Assembly: GCA_902770835.1 (NCBI GenBank)
Contig: CACXUM010000004.1
Span: 25,149 to 89,148 of the forward strand
Origin: an uncultured Bacteroidia bacterium
GTDB lineage: Bacteria; Bacteroidota; Bacteroidia; Bacteroidales; F082
Direction of reading: 5' to 3'
DNA length: 64,000 nt
How positions within the stretch are numbered: position 1 is the first letter of the stretch; each line of letters begins with the position of its first letter. Below are positions 2,835 through 44,099 of this stretch, piece after piece. The notes beneath the pieces are model-generated. The model searched no databases, had not been told where the DNA came from, and saw only the letters and a list, made by a program, of their open reading frames with translations. Made by a program: the position numbers and the translations under genes.

Positions 2835-4421
2835 TTATTCTTTGACAATGATCCAATCCGAAACGGTTTTGGTCTCTTGCGAGAAAGCGATGCCTATCTT
2901 GACTATAGGCTTTCCATCTGTTTGGTAGGGAATGGCGTAGTTTTTCGAGTCGATTTGCTCGATAGCCTCTTGCGCCGTTCCGCGCATTTTCAGTTCCATT
3001 ACATAGATGGCGTCATTCATGAACACAACGACGTCGGTTTTGCCTCGTGCCACTTTCACCTGAGTGAAGGTGCGGCAGTTGAAAATGGAAAAGACAATGT
3101 AGGTCAGCACCTCGTAATAGGCTTCGTATTTGGTGATGTCGTCCAATTCCTTCTCGCCGAACTCCAAATAGGGGATGGAGGCGAAGAAGGCCTGCATGGC
3201 TTTCATGGCTCCTTCTATGTCGTGGTGAATCAGGCAGGCGTAGAAACTGCCTGCAAAACCTTGCGCGTTGGCATTGTTGATGCCCATCATCGATGAGAGG
3301 AAATTGTCCAAGAAGCCCACTTTCACCTCTGAGTTGGGGAAGTCGAGCGTATAGTTTCTGCTGTAGAAGTCGTAGCCCTTGATGGTAAGGTAGCCGCTTT
3401 GGTAGAGCAGGGGCAGGGCAGAGGTCATGGCCTCAGTGGGCACGTCGAACTGGGAGGAAGGCACTTGCAGTTTCTCCAATTCCAAAAGGTTGGTGTTGAA
3501 GTGCTTCATCGACTCGAACAGAAAAGAGGGCGTGCCGCTGCCAAACCAGAAATAATCCAACAACTTCGAGCGGAACACGTTCATCAGGCTGAAAGGATTG
3601 AAGACATCGGGCGACTTGTTGCTGAAATGATAGCCGTCATAATTCAGTTTCAGCCTGTCAATCATGGCTTCTTTTGAACACCCGCATTCATCAGCCAAAA
3701 TCTGGATGTCCGCGTCGAAGATGGTCAGAAGTTCGTCCATGGTGATGCCGCAAAGTGACGCATACATTGGCTCCATCGATATGTTGCTCAAGTTGTTCAA
3801 GGTGGAGAAGATGCTCAATTGGCTGAACTTGGTGATGCCAGTGATGAAGACAAATTGCTCGTCGGCATCGCAAGCCTTGACGACTTGGTAAAACTCTTGC
3901 ATAATGCGGCGCACATCCCCAAGAATGTCAGGCTTGTGCAGATGGTCCAGCAATGGTGCGTCGTATTCGTCGAGAATGACTACGGTTTTCGTTCCAGTTT
4001 GCCGATGGGCGCGTTGAATCAGTCCCGCAAAGCGCATTCCGGGTGTTCTTTCTTCCTCGACACGGCCGTATATTTCTTCGTATCGGCGCAATTGAAACTC
4101 CAAGGCACTGATGATTCCTGCTGCGTCCGTTTGGTTTTTGCATAGGCTGATGTCGAAATGCAACACGGGATGTTGTTTCCAGTCCTTTTCCAACTCGGCG
4201 ATGGCGAGGCCTTCAAACAGGTCTTTGCGGCCTTGGAAGTAATACTTTAAGGTGCTGCAAAGCAGGCTCTTGCCGAACCTTCTCGGGCGGCTGAGGAAAA
4301 CGAATTGCGATTCTTTCGTCATTCTGTAGATAAGGTCTGTCTTATCCACATAAATGCGCCCATCTTGGCGGATGCGTTCAAAATCGGCGATGCCGGCGGT
4401 GTAGAGTCTCATGGGTAGCAT
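2835..4421 (-). CDS. AAA-ATPase-like protein with C-terminal PD-(D/E)XK domain (DUF1703 type)
   Basis: 528 aa. The N-terminus matches the AAA-ATPase_like family: LYTAGIADFERIR..., then a Walker A-like SRPRRFGKS (K51, S52) and a Walker B-like VVILDEYDAPL. The last ~70 residues carry a PD-(D/E)XK nuclease-like core (KTDVVVFMND...YVMELKM). These proteins are common in gut Bacteroidales, often in many copies per genome, and their biological role is not settled. Start chosen at the first Met; MRLYTAG three codons later is equally possible. A -7 element (TAATTTTG on the minus strand, 4453-4446) lies just upstream. A similar ATPase-plus-nuclease layout recurs at 25523 and 41552, but those belong to a different family. 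Confidence 0.85.
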   Translation of the reverse strand: MLPMRLYTAGIADFERIRQDGRIYVDKTDLIYRMTKESQFVFLSRPRRFGKSLLCSTLKYYFQGRKDLFEGLAIAELEKDWKQHPVLHFDISLCKNQTDAAGIISALEFQLRRYEEIYGRVEEERTPGMRFAGLIQRAHRQTGTKTVVILDEYDAPLLDHLHKPDILGDVRRIMQEFYQVVKACDADEQFVFITGITKFSQLSIFSTLNNLSNISMEPMYASLCGITMDELLTIFDADIQILADECGCSKEAMIDRLKLNYDGYHFSNKSPDVFNPFSLMNVFRSKLLDYFWFGSGTPSFLFESMKHFNTNLLELEKLQVPSSQFDVPTEAMTSALPLLYQSGYLTIKGYDFYSRNYTLDFPNSEVKVGFLDNFLSSMMGINNANAQGFAGSFYACLIHHDIEGAMKAMQAFFASIPYLEFGEKELDDITKYEAYYEVLTYIVFSIFNCRTFTQVKVARGKTDVVVFMNDAIYVMELKMRGTAQEAIEQIDSKNYAIPYQTDGKPIVKIGIAFSQETKTVSDWIIVKE

Positions 4422-24780: not shown

Positions 24781-25470
24781 TATTCCCCAAGAAAAGTGTG
24801 GTAATTTGCCGAATATTCCCCAAAAAAAGTGTAGTAAATTGCTGAATATTCCCCGAGAAAAATGTCGTAAATTGCCGAATATTCCCCAATAAAAGTGTAG
24901 TAAATTGCTGAATATTCCCCGAGAAAAATGTCGTAAATTGCCGAATATTCCCCAATAAAAGTGTGGTAAGTTGTCGAATATTCCCAAATAAAAATGTAGT
25001 GATTTGCAGAATATTCCCAAATAAAAATGTAGTGATTTGTCGAATATTCCCAAATAAAAATGTAGTGATTTGCCGAATATTCCCCAAGAAAAGTGTAGTG
25101 ACTTGCCGAATATTCCCCAAGAAAAGTGTGGTAAGTTGTCGAATATTCCCAAATAAAAATGTAGTGATTTGCAGAATATTCCCCAAGAAAAGTGTAGTGA
25201 CTTGCCGAATATTCCCCAAGAAAAGTGTAGTAATTTGTCGAATATTTCCCAAGAAAAGTGTAGTAAGTTTCCAAATATTCCCCAAGAAAAGTGTAGTAAT
25301 TTGTCGAATATTCCCAAAGAAAAGTGTAGTGATTTGCTGAATATTCCCCAATAAAAATGTAGTAATTAGCTGAATATTCCCCAATAAAAGTGTGGTAATT
25401 TGCGGAATATTCCCCAAGAAAAGTGTATAGATTTTCCAAATATTCCCAAAAATATTTGTTCAAATCTGTT
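24778..25470. repeat. Tandem array of about 21 units of 33 bp, upstream of an AAA_14/DUF4143 ATPase
   Basis: Each unit begins with the palindrome GAATATTC followed by CCC, an A-rich stretch, GTGTAGTAA-like bases and TTTGCC. The palindrome (or a one-base variant at 25240, 25273 and 25438) starts at 24811, 24844, 24877 and so on to 25438: 20 positions with every interval exactly 33 bp. One degenerate unit precedes them. Long ORFs stay open in several frames on both strands only because 33 is divisible by three and the unit lacks stops. Those that stay within the array begin at TTG codons, and none has a convincing start, so I read the array as non-coding. It ends at the -33 region of the ATPase promoter, which suggests a phased binding-site array or a recombination-prone minisatellite. 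Confidence 0.92.
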
Positions 25471-25497
25471 GTATGTGTCTAAAATTTAGTATTTTTG
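25468..25497 (+). promoter_or_regulatory. Promoter of the first AAA_14/DUF4143 ATPase gene
   Basis: GTTG (25468-25471) as a weak -33, 18-base spacer, TATTTTTG (25490-25497) as -7. The 33-bp array runs up to the -33 position. The ATG is at 25523. Confidence 0.55.
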
Positions 25498-35615: not shown

Positions 35616-35663
35616 ACCTCGTAGGGATGGCAAGATAGGAGGCTGGAGGTTTCAACCCTTGCC
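35616..35663 (+). repeat. Dispersed intergenic repeat, family A, copy 2 (diverged)
   Basis: CCTCGTAGGGATGGCAAGAT, then AGGAGGCTGGAGGTTTCAAC and CCTTGCC. Aligns over its length with copy 1 at 19942 but with many substitutions. Confidence 0.5.
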
Positions 35664-35731
35664 TTTCACAGACCAAAGTAAAAAAGTCGTTTTTCTTCGC
35701 GAAAAGCGGCTTTTTTCTCAAATAGGTTTCC

Positions 35732-35739
35732 TATTTTTG
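35732..35739 (+). promoter_or_regulatory. -7 promoter element of the alpha-2-macroglobulin gene
   Basis: TATTTTTG, 30 bases upstream of the ATG at 35770. It excludes the in-frame ATG at 35659 as start. Confidence 0.55.
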
Positions 35740-35769
35740 TACTCTCGAAAACAATCAAAGTTTTACGAT

Positions 35770-38700
35770 ATGAGTACAAATCAAAAAATGAGAAAATTCG
35801 GCGGCATCAGCCTGATTGTCACTGCATTGCTGCTGGCCTTCATGCCCTCGTGCGGCAAGAAGGGAACGACGAAAGGTTCGGAAATGTTCGTGGAGCGCAT
35901 CCAGCCTTTGAATGAGGCCATGTTGGCCTTGCTCGACAGTTACACTTCGGGCATCATTGCGGCGGGCGAGCCTGTCATGGTGCGGTTCAACAATCCCGCG
36001 ACGCTGAAAGTGAAGTACGGCGAACCCATCCCCGCCAAGGCTTTCGACTTCAAGCCCGCTTTGAAAGGCAAGGCCGTTTGGATTGACGAGAACACCATCG
36101 GTTTCCAGTACGACGACATCGACAAGGACCAGAACTATGTCTGCCAGTTCAAGATGGCCGACTTCGTGGATGTGCCTGCTGACCAGCAACTTGAGTTTGG
36201 CTTTGGCGTGCGCCGGCAGAATTTCAGCCTCGTCACGATGCAGCCCGTTTGCACCTCCAACGAAGAGATGAGTTATCTCATGCAGGTTGCCTTTGCCACG
36301 CCCATCGACCTTGAGGATGCCGTCAAAATCTTTGATGACGCTTTCCGCAAAGCCCATCCCGTGGAGGTGGCTTCGTTGGGCAACAACCTCTTTGAGTTTG
36401 AGTTGCAAGGCTTTAAGCGCCAGAAAGACGAATATGAGATGCCCGTCGTTCTCGATGGAAAGGCCATTGACTGCAAGGCGAGGATGGAGCGCAGCCTGAC
36501 CGTTTATGCTCAGGATGTCTTCAAGCCCGTGATGTTCGATGTGGACAAGGCGGGAAGCAAGGGAACTTTGCTTTTCTCGCAGCCGCTGAAGGAAAACCAA
36601 AACCTTGACGGCTTCGTGAATTTCGACCAAAAAGTTGGCTATAAGGCTGACATTAAGGGAAATAAGGTGGATTTCTATTTCGATAAGTCCAACCTTTATC
36701 CTTACCAGTTGGAAAGCCTTCAACTGACCGTGGGCAGTGGTATTCGTGCCGCCAACGGCATGTTGCTGCAAAGCGATTATCAGTATGATTTCGACCTGAC
36801 CGACAACCTCCCGAAGGTGCGTTGGACTGACGATGGTGTCATCATCCCCGATGTGAACGAAACTACCATCTATTTCGATGCCATCTGCCTTAACTCGGTG
36901 ACTTTGAGGATTGTGCGTATCTTCGACGACAACATCCTTTCCTTCTTGCAGGACAACGAATTGAACGAAACTTACGGCGTGCGCAAGGCAGGTCGATTGG
37001 AGAAAAAGGTGCGTTTGGCCATCGACAACCCATACGCCAACCAGTGGAAGACCTTCCCGATTGTGCTTTCCGACTATATCAAAGTGGAACCGGGTGCGAT
37101 GTACCAGTTGAGCCTCAATTTCGGTCCCGCCGACTACACTTTTGCATCTGATGAAATGCGTAGCGCAGTGTCTGAAAACGAGGCACTTGAGGCTTCCTAT
37201 TGGGACGGCAATGCCTACGATTACAAGGAATACCGCTACGATGGCGAGTGGGGCGACCCGAATGGCTTCTATTATTATAATTATGTGGAGCAGAAAAAGA
37301 ACATCGTCGTCAGCGACTTGGCCGTGACCGCAAAAATGGGTCGCAGCGACGCGGTTGATGTGTTTGTCTACAGGATTTCCGATGCCATGCCGGTTGCGGG
37401 CGCGCAAGTGACGGCATACAATTTCCAGCGTCAGGAATTGGTCAAAGGTAGCACCGATGTGCAGGGTCATGCGCAACTGAAGTGCGAAAACCGTCCTGCC
37501 TTCGTGATGGTCACGGACAAGAAAGGAAGCAAGTCGGTGATAAAGTTGAACGATGGCAATGCGCTCTCTTACAGCCGTTTCGATGTGGCGGGCGAGCCTG
37601 TCGAGAAGGGCGTTTCGGGATTTGCCTACAGCAACCGAGGCGTTTGGCGGCCAGGTGATGAGATGCAACTCAACCTGATGCTGAACGATTTCGAGTCGAG
37701 CGTGCCTGCCGACTATCCTGTTGTCCTTGAGGTGGTTGACGCGACAGGTCGCCTCTATGCCAAGCAGGTGAACACCAAACCTGTGAATGACATTTATTGC
37801 TTCCGCGTCCCGACCAATGTCAGCGACGAAACGGGAGTGTGGACGGCGCGTTTCAAGGTGGGCACAAGCACCATCACCAAGAACCTCCGCGTGGAAACCG
37901 TGAAGCCTAACCGCTTGGAAATCAACTTTAACTTGCCCGAAGTGGTCAGTTTGTCACGCAATGAGCGTGTCAATCTGACTTCGAGATGGCTCAATGGCAT
38001 GAAAGCCAACGGCTTGAAGGCTGAAGTGGATGTGAAATTGCGCGGCGGCGAAACCTCGTTCAAGAATTTCGCCAATTATTCCTTCGTCAACGAAACGCAA
38101 AGTTTTGAGCCACAGGAGATTTCGCTGTTAAGCGGCAACCTCAATTCGGAAGGCGTCGCCAACATAGGTTTTGGCCCGATGAAGGACGTTTACGCCTCGC
38201 AGATGATGAACGGTATCTTCACGGTGAAGGTTTTCGAGCAGGGCGGCGACTTCAGCATTGCTTCCTTCAAGGCAAAACTTTCTCCCTTCCAGCGTTATGT
38301 GGGCGTGGATTTGCCCGAAACTTCCTCAAAATACGGCAGTTACTACGACACGGGCAAGGATTGGAAGTTCAATATCGCGATGGTCGGCGAGGACGGCGCG
38401 GCTTATCAGTCGGCGGTTGCCCTGGAATATGCCTTGTATAAGTTGGATTCCTATTGGTGGTGGTCGAGTGAGGATCAGTATTCGCTGCAACGCTATGCTT
38501 CAGGCACTTACAAGGCTCCCGTGCAAAACGGCACCTTGACCTGCAACGGAACGACTTCAGTCACTTTCAACATTCCTAACGAAAAATGGGGCAGTTATCT
38601 CTTTGTGGTGAACGACAAGCAGGGCGGCCATCAGTTCGCCAAAGTCATCAGTTTCGATTGGGGCTATGGACATTCTTCGTCCGCTTCTGGTGCGCCTGCG

Positions 38701-41292
38701 CAATTGGCCATGAAAACCACTGCCGAGAGTTATCAGGTGGGCGAGAAGATGGTCGTCACGTTCCCTGCCAACGACAAGGCCAAGGCACTCGTAACCGTTG
38801 AGGCTAACGACAGGGTTTTGCAGACCATGTTGGTCGAAAATCTCGGTCAAGAGGGCAAGGTGGAAATCACCACCACGGAGGAGATGGTTCCGAATGTGTA
38901 TGTCTATGTCGCTCTGATTCAGCCACATGATGCCGCCAACGACATGCCGATTCGTTTGTATGGCGTGGTGCCGGTGAAGGTGGAGAAGAAGGATTTGCAG
39001 TTGCAACCCAATCTCCAAGTGCCCGAAACGGCCAACACGAACAAGAAGATTGAAGTGAAGGTGAGCGAGGCCCGCAAGCAAGCCATGACCTACACTTTGG
39101 CCATCGTTGACGAAGGCATTCTCGGCCTCACCAATTTCAAGACCCCGAACCCTTACGGCTATTTCAACAGCAAGCAGGCCTTGAGCGTCCGCACTTGGGA
39201 CAACTACGCCAACATCGTTGATGCGTTCAGCGGCGAGTTGGGTTCCGTTTATGCCATCGGTGGCGACGGTATCCTCAATCAGGAAATCACTTTGGACAAC
39301 CGTTTCAAGGCCTACGCCGTCACTTTGGGACCTTTCGAGTTGAAGGCGGGACAAGAAAACACCCATAGTTTTGAAGTGCCGCAATGCTCTGGTGCCCTGC
39401 GCTTTATGGTGGTGGCCAAGGGCAATGGAAAGGCTTTTGGCTCGTCCGAAAAACAGATGAAGGTCGTCGACCCGATTACGCTCTATCCTTCTCTGCCGCG
39501 AGTGGTTGCTCCCGGCGATGAACTGAACCTGAAAGTCCAAGTGCAAGCCCCGACGATGAAGAACAAGACCCTTGAGGTGAAGTTCAACAATAAGAACCTT
39601 GAATCTATAGATCCATTGCCTACCACAGTGAAAACAGTGGAAATTGATGGCAACGGCGAGGGTTTGATTGTCGTTAAGACCAACATCCCTAATACCATAG
39701 GTAATGCCGTACTCGACGTTTCGGTGCGCGGCGAAGGCTACACTGCCCAATCCATAACCGAGATGCCAATCCGTATGCCTTACGCTGAACGCAGAAGCAC
39801 CGTCACCAAGGAGATCGAGGCTGGACAGACATTGACTTTGCCCTTCAACCTTGGAGGTATGGCGGGCACGCAGCAGGGCAACATCACTGTTTCGAGCCTG
39901 CTGCCTGTCGACCTCTTTGGCCGCATTGACTACTTGATGGATTATCCTCACGGCTGCCTTGAACAGTTGACTTCCAAGGCTTTCCCGCAACTTTACCTCA
40001 ATTATTTCGTCCAACTCGACGACAAGGAAAAGGAAGCGATGCGCAGCAATATTGAAGCCGCCATCACCAACCTGAAGGCCTATCAGAAAGCCGACAATTC
40101 GATGACCAACTGGATTGGAGGCACTTACACAGACCCGTGGACGGAGATTTACGCTTTGCACTTCTTGGTGGAGGCTCAGAAACAAGGTTTTAACGTGCCG
40201 CAATACTTCATTGACGGTCTGCTGAAATACCAAGGCGACCGTGCCAAGCAGTGGAAGAACAACCCCGACTTCAAGCAAGGCGAAACGATCCAAGCCTACC
40301 GTCTCTTTGTGCTGGCATTGGCTGGCAAGGCCGAAATGGGCGCGATGAACCGCTTCAAGGAAATCGAGATGCACTATCCGCTGACCAAGGCGTTGGCCGC
40401 TGCCGCCTTCGCGCAAACGGGCAAGACCACCATTGCGCAGAACCTGCTGCCCAATGTGGAGGAAGGCGAAAGGATGTCTGACTATTACACTTCCTTCGGG
40501 TCCCGCACCCGCGATTTGGCTTTCCTGACCTACGTCCAAATGCTCTGCGACATTGACCAGCAAACGGTGCAGAACAACATCAACAGCGTTTGCGGTATGA
40601 TTAGCGGCGACCGCTGGATGGACACCCAGACCACGGCCTTCTCGCTCTTTGTCTTAGGCAAGTATGCCGAAAAGATGAACCTAAGTAACGTCAACCTCTC
40701 CGCCACCGTAAAGGTGAACGGCGAGGAGCGCACGCTGAACACCAATATGGCTTCTGCTGGCTTTGGCTTCACACCTAAATTGGGCAACAACACTTTGGAA
40801 ATCAAGAACAACACCAACGAGAAGATGATTGCCAACCTGTTCACCAAGACTGCCGTTGCCGAATACGATATGAACGAAAGCGGCAATTTCATCACAATGA
40901 CGGTGAACTACACCGACAAGAACGGCAATCCCGTGAACCTCACCAACTTGACCGCTGGCACCGACCTGAAAGTCCAGATGACGGTGACCAACCCGAGCGA
41001 GTGGCAAGTCACGGAGTTGGCCTTGTCGTACTACCTGCCTTCGGGCTGGGAGTTGGTGAACGACCGTTTGAGTGGCGATATGACCGGCAACGAAGGCGCG
41101 AAGCACATCGACCTCCGCGACGACCGCGCCTACATCTATTTTGACCTGATGCCGCGCTCGAAGAAGACCTTCACCCTGAAGGCCAACGCCACCTACGAAG
41201 GCAACTACATGATTCCCGCCGTGCGCTGCGAGGATATGTACAATAACGAGATTTATTACCAGATTCCCGCTCGTGGGTGTGTGGTGAAGTAA
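35770..41292 (+). CDS. Alpha-2-macroglobulin family lipoprotein (thioester type)
   Basis: 1840 aa. Lipoprotein signal (VTALLLAFMPSC, Cys at 28). MG-like beta domains lead to an MG2 region (YSNRGVWRPGDEMQLNLML), a central A2M family block (VDEGILGLTNFKTPNPYGYF, then RFKAYAVTLGPFELKAG) and the thioester motif GCLEQ (C1396) in DYPHGCLEQLTSKAF, followed by an alpha-helical TED and a receptor-like end. Bacterial A2Ms trap attacking proteases by covalent capture in the periplasm. They are often next to pbpC, the periplasmic repair synthase; here pbpC is about 7 kb downstream on the same strand. A strong terminator follows. Confidence 0.95.
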   Translation: MSTNQKMRKFGGISLIVTALLLAFMPSCGKKGTTKGSEMFVERIQPLNEAMLALLDSYTSGIIAAGEPVMVRFNNPATLKVKYGEPIPAKAFDFKPALKGKAVWIDENTIGFQYDDIDKDQNYVCQFKMADFVDVPADQQLEFGFGVRRQNFSLVTMQPVCTSNEEMSYLMQVAFATPIDLEDAVKIFDDAFRKAHPVEVASLGNNLFEFELQGFKRQKDEYEMPVVLDGKAIDCKARMERSLTVYAQDVFKPVMFDVDKAGSKGTLLFSQPLKENQNLDGFVNFDQKVGYKADIKGNKVDFYFDKSNLYPYQLESLQLTVGSGIRAANGMLLQSDYQYDFDLTDNLPKVRWTDDGVIIPDVNETTIYFDAICLNSVTLRIVRIFDDNILSFLQDNELNETYGVRKAGRLEKKVRLAIDNPYANQWKTFPIVLSDYIKVEPGAMYQLSLNFGPADYTFASDEMRSAVSENEALEASYWDGNAYDYKEYRYDGEWGDPNGFYYYNYVEQKKNIVVSDLAVTAKMGRSDAVDVFVYRISDAMPVAGAQVTAYNFQRQELVKGSTDVQGHAQLKCENRPAFVMVTDKKGSKSVIKLNDGNALSYSRFDVAGEPVEKGVSGFAYSNRGVWRPGDEMQLNLMLNDFESSVPADYPVVLEVVDATGRLYAKQVNTKPVNDIYCFRVPTNVSDETGVWTARFKVGTSTITKNLRVETVKPNRLEINFNLPEVVSLSRNERVNLTSRWLNGMKANGLKAEVDVKLRGGETSFKNFANYSFVNETQSFEPQEISLLSGNLNSEGVANIGFGPMKDVYASQMMNGIFTVKVFEQGGDFSIASFKAKLSPFQRYVGVDLPETSSKYGSYYDTGKDWKFNIAMVGEDGAAYQSAVALEYALYKLDSYWWWSSEDQYSLQRYASGTYKAPVQNGTLTCNGTTSVTFNIPNEKWGSYLFVVNDKQGGHQFAKVISFDWGYGHSSSASGAPAQLAMKTTAESYQVGEKMVVTFPANDKAKALVTVEANDRVLQTMLVENLGQEGKVEITTTEEMVPNVYVYVALIQPHDAANDMPIRLYGVVPVKVEKKDLQLQPNLQVPETANTNKKIEVKVSEARKQAMTYTLAIVDEGILGLTNFKTPNPYGYFNSKQALSVRTWDNYANIVDAFSGELGSVYAIGGDGILNQEITLDNRFKAYAVTLGPFELKAGQENTHSFEVPQCSGALRFMVVAKGNGKAFGSSEKQMKVVDPITLYPSLPRVVAPGDELNLKVQVQAPTMKNKTLEVKFNNKNLESIDPLPTTVKTVEIDGNGEGLIVVKTNIPNTIGNAVLDVSVRGEGYTAQSITEMPIRMPYAERRSTVTKEIEAGQTLTLPFNLGGMAGTQQGNITVSSLLPVDLFGRIDYLMDYPHGCLEQLTSKAFPQLYLNYFVQLDDKEKEAMRSNIEAAITNLKAYQKADNSMTNWIGGTYTDPWTEIYALHFLVEAQKQGFNVPQYFIDGLLKYQGDRAKQWKNNPDFKQGETIQAYRLFVLALAGKAEMGAMNRFKEIEMHYPLTKALAAAAFAQTGKTTIAQNLLPNVEEGERMSDYYTSFGSRTRDLAFLTYVQMLCDIDQQTVQNNINSVCGMISGDRWMDTQTTAFSLFVLGKYAEKMNLSNVNLSATVKVNGEERTLNTNMASAGFGFTPKLGNNTLEIKNNTNEKMIANLFTKTAVAEYDMNESGNFITMTVNYTDKNGNPVNLTNLTAGTDLKVQMTVTNPSEWQVTELALSYYLPSGWELVNDRLSGDMTGNEGAKHIDLRDDRAYIYFDLMPRSKKTFTLKANATYEGNYMIPAVRCEDMYNNEIYYQIPARGCVVK

Positions 41293-41396: not shown

Positions 41397-41495
41397 AAAA
41401 TTGCGCTCAGGGAACATTTTGCTGTTTTGAAAATTGCGCTCAGGGAACATTTTGCTGTTTTGAAAATTGCGCTCAGAGAACATTTTTATAAAATT
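41397..41495. repeat. Three tandem 33-bp units upstream of the second AAA_14/DUF4143 ATPase
   Basis: Units begin at 41397, 41430 and 41463 with AAAATTGCGCTCAGGGAACA. The first two are identical over 33 bp; the third differs (AGAGAACATTTTTATAAAATT). The core GGGAACATTTTGC resembles the core of the first array read on the opposite strand (GGGAATATTCGGC). The last unit ends next to the TTTG -33 element of the ATPase promoter. Unlike the first array, the unit contains stop codons. Confidence 0.9.
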
Positions 41496-41496
41496 G

Positions 41497-41528
41497 TTTG
41501 CACAACTAAAAGATGATCAGTAATTTTG
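41497..41528 (+). promoter_or_regulatory. Promoter of the second AAA_14/DUF4143 ATPase gene
   Basis: TTTG (41497-41500), 20-base spacer, TAATTTTG (41521-41528): an excellent fit to the Bacteroidota consensus. The ATG is at 41552. The 33-bp array ends at 41495, two bases before the -33 element. Confidence 0.75.
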
Positions 41529-41551
41529 CAACGGATTTAAAATAGTTTACT

Positions 41552-42889
41552 ATGTCAGATTATGTATTTCGGCGCAAGGCATACCAAAAGATGCTGCAAT
41601 GGAAGGAGGAATCGCAGGGCGAAACGGCACTTTTGATTGAAGGTGCAAGGCGCGTGGGCAAGTCCACGCTTGTGCGGCAATTCGCCCAAAACGAATACAA
41701 ATCGTTTGCGCTTTTTGACTTTTCTAAAGTCTCGAAAGAAGAAAAAGCCTTGTTTGAGGATTTGTCGGACATGGATTTTTTCTTCAATCGTATGAGACTG
41801 TTGAAAGGCATATCGCTTTATGAGCGCGAAACGGCTATTGTGTTCGACGAGGTGCAGAAATTTCCTGTCGCTCGTCAAGCGATTAAGGCATTGGTGGAGG
41901 ATGGCCGATACGATTACATCGAGACGGGTTCGCTCATCAGCATCCACAAGAATGTGGATAATATCATCATTCCGTCAGAAGAGGAGGTAATTGATTTGTA
42001 CCCAATGGATTATGAAGAGTTTTTGTGGGCAATGGGCGATGCCGAAAGTATGGACTTGTTTCGCGAGGCATGGCAGAAAAAACGTGGCTATGGCGATGCT
42101 GTCAACCGAAAACTGATGCGTGATTTCCGTTTGTACATGCTTGTTGGCGGGATGCCGCAGGCGGTGAGCAAATACATCGTCACCAAGGATTTGTCTGCCG
42201 TTGACAAGACCAAGAGAGGCATTATTCGTCTGTATCGCAATGATTTTCAAAAGATTGACAAAACGGGCAAGGCGACAACGCTTTTCATGTCTATTCCATC
42301 GCAGTTGGCCAATAACGCCAATCGTTTTCAACCTTCCACGGTTATCGACAAAACCCGTGCAGAGCAGTTGGAAAGCCTCGTTTTCATGATGCAGGACAGC
42401 AAGACGGTCAATGTGTGCTATCATGCCAACGACCCCAATGTTGGGATGGACTTGTCCGCCAACCGATCTGCCTACAAGATGTTCATTGCCGACACGGGGC
42501 TTTTTGTGACACTGGCCTTCTGGGACAAGAACTTCACAGAGAATGTCATTTATCGGAAATTGCTGAATGACAGTCTTTCTGTCAATCTTGGGTATGTTTA
42601 TGAGAATATGGTGGCGCAGATGCTTGTGGCGGCGGGCAACCGCTTGTTTTATTACACTTTCCCTGACGGCAACAAGCACAATTATGAAGTGGATTTCCTG
42701 TTGTCGCGTAAGGCGAAAATTTGTCCTATCGAGGTCAAGTCGGAAGGCTATAACACCCACCGCTCTTTGGATGAGTTCTGCAAGAAATTTTCCTCGCGCG
42801 TTGATGAACGTTACCTTGTTTATGCCAAAGACTTGCGCAAAGACAGCGAAACCACGCTTGTACCGTTTTATATGACGGGGTTGATATGA
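41552..42889 (+). CDS. AAA family ATPase with DUF4143, second copy
   Basis: 445 aa. Same layout as the gene at 25523: Walker A IEGARRVGKSTL, Walker B AIVFDEVQKF, sensor-like YIETGSLISI, YPMDYEEFLWAMG. DUF4143 then carries YMLVGGMPQAVSKYI, KMFIADTGLFVTL and a PD-(D/E)XK-like core (NYEVDFLLSRKAKICPIEVK). Sequence divergence from the first copy is large, so these are old paralogues or independent acquisitions, not a recent duplication. It is the first gene of the accessory island between the alpha-2-macroglobulin and pbpC genes. Confidence 0.9.
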   Translation: MSDYVFRRKAYQKMLQWKEESQGETALLIEGARRVGKSTLVRQFAQNEYKSFALFDFSKVSKEEKALFEDLSDMDFFFNRMRLLKGISLYERETAIVFDEVQKFPVARQAIKALVEDGRYDYIETGSLISIHKNVDNIIIPSEEEVIDLYPMDYEEFLWAMGDAESMDLFREAWQKKRGYGDAVNRKLMRDFRLYMLVGGMPQAVSKYIVTKDLSAVDKTKRGIIRLYRNDFQKIDKTGKATTLFMSIPSQLANNANRFQPSTVIDKTRAEQLESLVFMMQDSKTVNVCYHANDPNVGMDLSANRSAYKMFIADTGLFVTLAFWDKNFTENVIYRKLLNDSLSVNLGYVYENMVAQMLVAAGNRLFYYTFPDGNKHNYEVDFLLSRKAKICPIEVKSEGYNTHRSLDEFCKKFSSRVDERYLVYAKDLRKDSETTLVPFYMTGLI

Positions 42890-42931
42890 AGAATGTTTAT
42901 GGGAATTGGGAAAGAGTATAGGGAAAAATGC

Positions 42932-42939
42932 TAATATTG
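42932..42939 (+). promoter_or_regulatory. -7 promoter element of the DUF1016 gene
   Basis: TAATATTG, one mismatch to TAnnTTTG, 20 bases upstream of the chosen ATG at 42960. It argues against the in-frame start at 42906. Confidence 0.4.
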
Positions 42940-42959
42940 CAGTTTCAAAAGGCAACACT

Positions 42960-44099
42960 ATGAGTAAGTCGATAAACATTTTGGACAAGGATTATATCCA
43001 ATGGATCAAAGAATTGAGCAGCCGTTACCGCAGAAGCCAGATTAAGGCGGCGGTGAAGGTGAACGAGGAGATGCTACGGTTTTATTGGGAACTGGGGCGG
43101 GATATTGTGGAGAAAAAGGCCGAAAGTCGATGGGGCAGCGGGTTTATGAAGAATTTGAGTTATGATTTGAAAGCAGCCAACCCTGATGCTACTTGTTTTT
43201 CGCAAACGAACTTGTTGTATATGAAGAACTTCTATCTTCTTTTTCCTCCCCAAACGGAAATTGCTCCCCAAGTTGGGGAGCAATTGGAGCCAGCAAACAA
43301 AATCACTCCCCAACTTGGGGAGCAAAATAAAACTGTTCAAGTTGAACAGGCTGGCACTCCTTTGTTTATGATTCCTTGGGGACATTATAAACTCTTGATT
43401 GATAAATTCAAAAAGAAAATGTCTCACAAAGAAGCCTGGTTTTATGTGACAAAAACCATAGAAAACGATTGGAGTAGAGATATGTTGCTTAATGTTATTG
43501 ACTCCGACCTTTATCATCGTGAAGGAAAGGCTTTGTCAAATTTTTGTTCAACATTGCCCAAGGAATTAGGAAGTCTCGCCCAAGAACTTACAAAGGATCC
43601 ATACAATTTCGCTTTCACGGGAATAATGGGGCGCTACAACGAGCGTTTGTTGAAGGATGCCTTGTTAGACAACATTACCCGATTCTTGGTGGAGCTTGGG
43701 ACGGGATTTGCATACGTTGGCAAGGAATATCGTTTGCAAGTGGGCGAAAGGGAGCAGTTTATAGATTTGCTGTTCTATAACCTGAATCTGTCTTGTTATG
43801 TGGTGGTTGAGGTGAAAATCGGGAAGTTCGAGTTTGCCGACGTGGGGCAGTTGGGAGGCTATGTCGTTTCGTGCAACCATATTCTCCGCAAGGAAGGCCG
43901 CGACAATCCCACCATTGGCCTGCTCATCTGCAAGGAGAAAGACCGCATCCAAGCCCAATATGCCTTGGAATCGAGCAGCCAGCCTTTGGGAATCTCGGAG
44001 TACGAGTTGGAAAAGTTCTATCCCGAAAAAATAGAAGGCACGATTCCGACCATCAAGGAGATTGAGGAGAAGTTGAAGGAAATGAATAAAACCCATTGA
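42960..44099 (+). CDS. DUF1016 (YhcG-type) PD-(D/E)XK nuclease-domain protein
   Basis: 379 aa. The N-terminal DUF1016_N domain (about 1-160) has the pattern IKAAVKVNEEMLRFYWELGR, KNLSYDLKAANPD, FSQTNLLYMKNFY. The C-terminal nuclease-like domain (about 195-355) has YRLQVGEREQFIDLLFYNL, then CYVVVEVKIGKFEFADVGQL, with the D...ExK core. Such genes are frequent in accessory and defence regions, often next to restriction-modification loci as here; activity is mostly unproven. The linker holds two copies of a PQ(V/L)GEQ peptide encoded by strong palindromes (43259-43285, 43306-43322). Convergent with the methyltransferase gene. Confidence 0.88.
   Translation: MSKSINILDKDYIQWIKELSSRYRRSQIKAAVKVNEEMLRFYWELGRDIVEKKAESRWGSGFMKNLSYDLKAANPDATCFSQTNLLYMKNFYLLFPPQTEIAPQVGEQLEPANKITPQLGEQNKTVQVEQAGTPLFMIPWGHYKLLIDKFKKKMSHKEAWFYVTKTIENDWSRDMLLNVIDSDLYHREGKALSNFCSTLPKELGSLAQELTKDPYNFAFTGIMGRYNERLLKDALLDNITRFLVELGTGFAYVGKEYRLQVGEREQFIDLLFYNLNLSCYVVVEVKIGKFEFADVGQLGGYVVSCNHILRKEGRDNPTIGLLICKEKDRIQAQYALESSSQPLGISEYELEKFYPEKIEGTIPTIKEIEEKLKEMNKTH
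43259..43322. repeat. Two palindromes inside the DUF1016 gene linker
   Basis: 43259-43285: 13-bp perfect arms (AATTGCTCCCCAA and its complement) around a single G. 43306-43322: 8-bp arms (CTCCCCAA / TTGGGGAG) around a C. They encode a repeated PQVGEQ/PQLGEQ peptide. Confidence 0.7.

Follow-up and report, generated by a model that had tools for sequence, protein, structure and literature searches.

Tandem repeats upstream of PDC-S01 ATPase genes as probable private operators in a Bacteroidales genome

The 33-bp repeats that precede an AAA_14/DUF4143 ATPase gene (ATPase gene 2) in the 64,000-nucleotide stretch of Bacteroidia DNA analysed here (the window) probably form a private operator of that gene, a reading to which we give a probability of about two in three. 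The gene's own AAA+/winged-helix/PD-(D/E)XK protein would bind its boxes, probably through the winged helix, as an oligomer with subunits spaced two or three helical turns apart along the same side of the double helix. Bound there, it would keep its own promoter silent, and a trigger, perhaps phage infection, would lift this repression by altering the ATP state of the protein or by drawing it elsewhere. The assignment of the array to the ATPase is well supported, and repression of the gene's own promoter is likely from the comparisons reported below, from which we also infer binding, repression rather than activation, the oligomer, the trigger and a role in defence. The sequence-only reading of this stretch had proposed a module of repeats plus ATPase in which the array controls the gene or is its DNA target. 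This proposal is supported by an excess of repeats across the family, by periods that are bound to protein clades, by units that are mostly private to one gene, by a register fixed to the promoter in the clade of gene 2 and by box cores kept in relatives; genome comparison also revealed that the genes are inserted singly.

Array 2, its promoter and its ATPase

Table 1. Features at the two ATPase loci of the window (positions of the window, forward strand read 5' to 3')
Feature	Position	Strand	Details and basis
Array 1	24781..25447	+	33 bp x 20.2 copies; TRF
-7 element TATTTTTG of gene 1	25490..25497	+	TAnnTTTG scan; -33 from ATG
ATPase gene 1, 437 aa	25523..26836	+	AAA_14 + DUF4143 (Pfam); PADLOC PDC-S01 E 3.1e-176
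Alpha-2-macroglobulin-like gene, left neighbour of gene 2	35659..41292	+	Pfam; 3' end marks insertion site
Array 2	41397..41486	+	33 bp x 2.7 copies, 98% matches; TRF
-33 promoter element TTTG of gene 2	41497..41500	+	sequence
-7 promoter element TAATTTTG of gene 2	41521..41528	+	sequence; TAnnTTTG scan
ATPase gene 2, 445 aa	41552..42889	+	AAA_14 + DUF4143 (Pfam E 4.7e-23 and 5.5e-19); PADLOC PDC-S01 E 1.1e-99
Region read as winged helix, residues 236-312	42257..42487	+	structure model; presumed DNA reader
PD-(D/E)XK-like domain, residues 313-445	42488..42886	+	17-sequence alignment; structure model
YhcG/DUF1016 PDDEXK gene, right neighbour of gene 2	42906..44099	+	likely ATG 42960; Pfam; PADLOC PDC-S02

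The three-unit array that had been described before the ATPase was recovered by TRF (Table 1), with units beginning at 41397, 41430 and 41463, the third of which is incomplete and diverges from the unit after about 24 bases. Each unit consists of a core, AAAATTGCGCTCAGGGAACATTTT, followed by a 9-bp spacer, and the core, searched as a 20-mer with up to 3 mismatches, has three matches in the whole genome, all inside array 2. The units follow one another head to tail with 98% matches, whereas CRISPR repeats are parted by unique spacers. The promoter, TTTG-N20-TAATTTTG followed by the ATG at 41552, is present in the sequence just as it had been reported, its -33 and -7 elements being assigned by a promoter consensus that we assume to apply here.

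An equal distance between array and ATPase had been claimed for the two loci from figures of 57 and 53 bp to the ATG of genes 2 and 1; by TRF these become 65 and 75 bp, and it is the distances to the -7 box, 35 and 40 bp, that are alike. At gene 2 the detected repeats stop at that distance and cover none of the promoter window, for which reason activation is possible at this gene. The two proteins, both AAA_14 + DUF4143, are 26% identical, in agreement with the view of two strongly diverged ATPases of one architecture. A core common to both arrays, GGGAAYATT, did not withstand comparison: the best match of the units in opposite orientation (17/33) was equalled in 215 of 2000 letter shuffles and the best match in the same orientation is 15/33, and the common core was rejected as being at chance level. 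The copy number of array 1 changes fast, from 20.2 here to 10.6 in a 98% identical orthologue (L149). Just outside the window, about 50 bp from its start, is a third gene of the PDC-S01 type (DUF4143), which has a 22-bp array (G000:C4:24621-25097, in L044); the domain match of this gene ends 52 bp outside the left edge, and its boxes resemble those of the paralogue C47:14741.

Relatives with 72-83% protein identity share the box core of gene 2, at 22/24 positions in L198, 21/24 in L204 and 20-21/24 in L199, and at 68% identity (L119) the match is down to 15/24. The spacer matches at 2-4/9 positions in L198, 8/9 in L204 and 2-6/9 in L199; since it is lost in the first but kept in the second and partly in the third, the core is not clearly the sole constrained part of the unit. 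In L199, the 72% relative, arrays of the same box flank the gene in the same orientation (2314-2436 and 3841-3930).

Both window ATPases match the PADLOC models of PDC-S01, a family (AAA_14 + DUF4143) that we take to be COG1373, over nearly their full length. The structure model of the gene 2 protein (pLDDT 86) comprises an AAA+ domain, a helical lid, a predicted winged-helix region, read from predicted secondary structure, and a PD-(D/E)XK-like end whose residues D381, E394 and K396 are invariant in 17 aligned sequences, which makes nuclease activity possible. Within the clade of gene 2, mean column entropy is 1.68 in the winged helix vs 1.03 in the AAA+ domain and 0.97 in the nuclease domain, with its peak at residues 260-280. 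Covariation between residues and boxes peaks in the nuclease domain (residue window at 401, partial correlation 0.228, permutation maximum 0.176) and amounts to 0.116 in the winged helix, measured with a similarity that lumps the constant core together with the variable part and the spacer, some units being badly extracted. Foldseek matches of the model include the STAND protein EfAvs5, Avs4, MuB, Orc1/Cdc6 on DNA, TnsC, Apaf-1 and the maltose-system structure 8bob, presumably MalT, all with low TM scores of about 0.2-0.36 by query; a sequence search for a solved relative returned no credible match (best E 0.28).

According to the available part of PMC12988326, PDC-S01 is an ATPase fused to PD-(D/E)XK and the fourth most common defence across prokaryotes, and most PDCs still await experimental validation; in rumen genomes it is the most frequent individual locus, as stated in the available part of PMC13356809. 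Promoter, operator, autoregulation and tandem or direct repeats are absent from the main texts of these two surveys, one of which mentions palindromes solely in the name of CRISPR. Among open-licence papers on DUF4143, COG1373, AAA_14 or PDC-S01, represented mostly by titles and abstracts, no report of operators, repeats or mobility was found. We consider PDC-S01 an abundant, largely untested defence candidate, and phage protection by the window genes putative.

Upstream repeats across the family

The genome (3.26 Mb, 85.8% complete) contains 54 DUF4143 matches, 51 of which were usable after exclusion of one that is cut by a contig end (C62) and of two fragments. Upstream regions of 250 bp were searched for direct repeats of at least 16/18, with the start set about 24 codons before Walker A, and the same was done for 227 other genes of the genome as controls. 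The excess of repeats that had been predicted upstream of AAA_14/DUF4143 genes was found, with repeats at 37/51 family genes vs 14/227 other genes (Fisher p 4.5e-23); by TRF the figures are 31/51 and 13/227. Lags among the 37 genes are 22, 23 and 32-34 bp only; one of these genes, C14:46296, counts through the array of C14:48135, its divergent neighbour. A coding role of the arrays was rejected, the periods 22, 23 and 32 not being multiples of three. Of the 14 repeat-positive controls, eight face a DUF4143 gene across the intergenic region that the two share, and two (L050:1849 and L062:7472) are genes of the sister family ATPase_2. A kinase gene that neighbours both an array and an ATPase_2 gene accounts for another, and the remaining three have no such connection, two of them lying at one and the same intergenic region of the window. 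Eleven control stretches (220 kb) were also taken, and no 22-, 23-, 32- or 33-bp array scoring at least 70 was present in them.

At a looser cut-off of 16/20, which 2 of 1080 shuffles reach with all sets pooled, a repeat was found in 42/51 own genes vs 23/227 controls and in 62/96 genes from relatives, leaving 9/51 and 34/96 without one. A set of named genomes, mostly Bacteroidales plus some MAGs labelled otherwise, provided 80 loci, 70 full genes and 69 with enough upstream DNA; here 60/69 members of the gene-2 clade carry a repeat at this cut-off, always of 32 or 33 bp. Nine of ten loci from IMG/VR viral contigs were usable, and all nine have a 33- or 34-bp repeat, corresponding to about five distinct arrays, and in a phylum sample, whose genes are mostly of the palindrome type described below, direct repeats occur in 1/23 (23 of 29 loci being usable). 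Plasmid-borne relatives, sampled as 8 of 59 matching records, reach 16/20 in 5/8 cases. TRF reports arrays for Agathobacter (33 bp x 3.6), Acinetobacter (32 x 2.0) and Fusobacterium (32 x 1.9), Glaesserella and one Parabacteroides (L315) reach the cut-off with a lag of 33, and the other Parabacteroides (13), Vibrio (14) and R. albus (15) stay below it.

Promoter repeats are also carried by sister ATPases (ATPase_2; AAA_14 without DUF4143) at L051:2317-3762, L060:1697-2899, L050:1849-3093 and L062:7472-8899, so the habit may extend beyond PDC-S01. At L051:2020-2141 (G000:C15) a 33-bp array of 3.7 copies lies between a gene of the amino-acid-kinase family, which we take to be pyrH, and the 3' end of an ATPase_2 gene; no family gene was found behind this array, which is possibly a relic operator.

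In a tree of the 51 proteins (a quick tree with two long branches, in which C14:46296 is labelled by its neighbour's array) the 23-bp group forms one clade (7/7), and the period labels require 12 changes vs a shuffled mean of 20.7, a number as low being obtained in 0/200 shuffles. On this tree the repeat period belongs to the ATPase clade.

The units themselves were compared within the genome by scanning the best-conserved 20-mer of each unit, at 17/20 or better, for 41 genes over 0.8 Mb, and for 25 of the 41 cores no match was found in the scanned DNA more than 800 bp from the gene's own start. Among the matches listed, all multi-copy outside matches precede another family gene, and the remainder are single, isolated sites at 17/20, of which one lies downstream of the C13:5321 gene. 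Boxes are shared in three sets, namely array 1 with C2:37381, C4:24621 with C47:14741, and C12:45896 with sites in L070, where two boxes of this type lie just upstream of a truncated family gene (C75:20-835). Boxes are mostly private to each gene, and since box sequences differ between paralogues in all but a few cases, the dozens of modules of a cell would hardly cross-regulate.

Between genes, unit similarity declines with protein identity. It is at least 0.7 in 51 of the 79 pairs with 80% identity or more (means 0.71 and 0.79), and pairs below about 65% identity come near the level of shuffled letters (0.48); the result is the same after dropping one ambiguous locus. The other 28 of the 79 pairs fall below 0.7, some of them because units were badly extracted. 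It was also asked whether modules with the same boxes avoid each other: among the sampled loci, pairs with at least 80% identity number 0 within a genome vs 33 between genomes, 27 of which share units, a pattern that is only suggestive because sampling is uneven and because coexistence of genes with similar boxes was also seen.

With regard to the promoter, a box motif of about AAANATTTNGNGG was learned, without promoter information, from 81 non-redundant array-bearing upstream regions of the gene-2 clade. In the 61 of these regions where a -7 box was found, cores lie near -25, -58, -91 and -124 bp from it, nearly all within 1-2 bases, and in 47/61 the proximal core stands at -24 to -26, over the -33 element. 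The TTTG of the promoter itself may account in part for this proximal position but does not account for the farther ones; at gene 2 the TTTG at 41497 occupies the fourth core position of the 33-bp register. The 23-bp clade has no fixed distance between box and promoter. Among the 41 array genes of the genome, 39 of which have a -7 box, 22 have repeats that extend over more than 25% of the promoter window. Repeats follow the -7 box in C58:18479 and C12:45896, run through it in C47:14741 and C5:67377 (by the box chosen in the scan), and stand upstream of the promoter window in both window genes and in 6/7 23-bp genes. In the sister subfamily with GPRQ[ST]GK, palindromes of at least 12/14 pairs are present in 25/40 genes from the relatives and phylum sets, vs 16/227 controls (genes of the window's genome) and 2/159 shuffles, and in all 25 the palindrome ends 0-30 bp before the ATG. 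Judged by their sequence positions, these repeats and palindromes would fit a repression operator better than activation, and a gene-specific repeated site at the gene's own promoter is what an autorepressor would use.

Insertion of single genes

The module of gene 2 is absent in two close relatives (G018 and G033; L279 and L284), in which the YhcG gene directly follows the left neighbour, and in G021 the same site holds a 62% identical ATPase with boxes of its own. Across relatives (L278-L307) the alpha-2-macroglobulin gene is followed directly by a pbpC-like gene, a label read from sequence, or by YhcG, an ATPase or others, and the gap behind it looks like an insertion hotspot. Copy number across genomes of the genus ranges from 0 (two genomes, one of them 99% complete) to at least 50.

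We compared 900 bp upstream with 900 bp downstream by BLAST for 206 modules and found a flanking repeat at 57, vs 9/233 in controls. The repeats are direct in 55 modules, with lengths of 25 to 317 bp, and in 40 of these 55 the right copy begins less than 100 bp from the stop. Seven of the nine positive controls are ATPase_2 (3), YhcG, PDDEXK_4, Schlafen or DDE transposase genes, and two have no family match. Genes 1 and 2 of the window show no flanking duplication at this cut-off. Other candidate defence genes (ATPase_2, YhcG, PDDEXK_4, Schlafen AlbA_2) are also seen between long direct repeats, as after insertion, at L062:7472, L068:9123, L072:2260, L073:4264, L075:4288 and L050:1849.

The paralogue C15:42914 has a target duplication of 167 bp, the copy being the end of the neighbouring gene, presumably secA, and ending in a CPCGSGKKYKQCHG motif. 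The site is present as a single copy in 17/17 matching relatives, often only partly alignable and in L359, which also has the left flank, split in two; no ATPase was found at the site in the examined DNA of these 17 relatives. C15:42914 has therefore the structure of an insertion with long target duplication, and gene 2 that of an insertion with no duplication at the cut-off used. Of 152 array modules, 12 carry the same boxes in the same orientation downstream of the stop codon and none carries them inside the gene. That these downstream boxes are relics of a tandem duplication of the whole module was considered and rejected, no ATPase remnant being detected in the 0.2 to 2.5 kb downstream of 13 modules, and insertion fits better than tandem duplication because empty sites were found. 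As far as aligned genomes can tell, PDC-S01 genes move as single-gene insertions, some of them with target duplications.

Readings of the array and known systems

If the array were an activation site, the ATP form of the ATPase would multimerise on the boxes, as MalT multimerises on its repeated boxes, and recruit RNA polymerase. We judge this unlikely, although repeats upstream of the promoter window (in the two window genes and most 23-bp genes), the box register locked to the promoter in the gene-2 clade and the maltose-regulator structure among the fold matches would all suit it, given that repeats cover or follow the -7 box in the four genes named above and that the palindromes of the GPRQ[ST]GK subfamily, 25 of 25, stop no more than 30 bp short of the ATG, an unexpected place for an activator. 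The array could also be a nuclease substrate or integration site, where the ATPase-nuclease cuts or joins DNA to move the module, as could be argued from the boxes behind some stop codons and never inside the gene, from the modules being insertions and from the invariant catalytic D, E and K. This seems improbable to us: boxes are on one side only in 140/152 modules, the duplication at C15:42914 is the end of a neighbouring gene and not boxes, and the boxes overlap promoters, which a substrate has no need to do.

Two further readings appear hardly credible. Repeats that are neutral products of slippage, travelling with the gene and without function, would account for the fast shift in copy number of array 1, for a unit similarity that declines with protein identity like that of any linked DNA and for the retention of spacer as well as core in the close relative L204, but not for an excess at one gene family and its sisters, for clade-bound periods in a fixed register to the promoter, or for L198, which retains the core and loses the spacer. 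Boxes that imitate phage or plasmid sequences attacked by the nuclease, as in CRISPR, would agree with a family that is a defence candidate and with units that vary from gene to gene; the units of array 2, however, are near-identical and have the position and register of an operator. Two exact patterns, those of arrays 1 and 2, had zero matches in viral contigs, and an origin of the boxes from phage was rejected.

The reading as a private operator allows a bolder extension, which we put forward as tentative: PDC-S01 genes could be self-mobile one-gene elements, in which one protein represses at private boxes and drives its own insertion, and an element already present shuts down any incoming one that has identical boxes. 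Modules would then coexist mainly by having different boxes, which would account for how extremely diverse the operators are. Such silencing of newcomers by a resident would resemble phage immunity or plasmid incompatibility.

The family is very common, and no mechanism for it was found in the literature searched, as far as its accessible parts go. Should every gene prove to carry an operator of its own, the upstream sequence of any family member would reveal which DNA it targets. This would be a direct starting point for binding assays, for the search for the inducing signal, and for working out a protein-DNA recognition code from thousands of natural pairs. Private boxes also suggest how dozens of paralogues stay insulated within one cell, and defence genes may gain a further way to spread through the insertion of single genes with target duplication.

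The window ATPases match the PDC-S01 models and share the ATPase-PD-(D/E)XK architecture of that family. Fold matches to EfAvs5, Avs4, 8bob and Apaf-1 may relate them to STAND regulators and antiviral STAND proteins (MalT, Avs), but the TM scores are low, and the window ATPases differ in being single genes with their own promoter and no regulon. Iteron plasmids and phage repressors under autorepression offer a parallel, in which the product of the neighbouring gene binds palindromes or direct repeats of about 20 bp with a specificity private to each element. Here too repeats or palindromes lie beside the gene and are mostly private to each element, as known from sequence, but PDC-S01 modules are mostly in chromosomal contigs, with dozens per genome. 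Restriction-modification genes are described as inserting with long target duplication (Nobusato et al. 2000, as cited in the available parts of PMC1643837 and PMC4978471). The likeness to these, within what those parts describe, is an insert between long direct repeats with a single copy at the empty site, and the difference is that a single ATPase-nuclease gene is inserted here, with direct repeats of 25-317 bp at 55/206 modules. Beyond the reach of the sequence-only reading were the match of the ATPases to PDC-S01, the 22/23-bp arrays or palindromes in paralogues, and the insertion of modules as single genes, some of them with target duplications.
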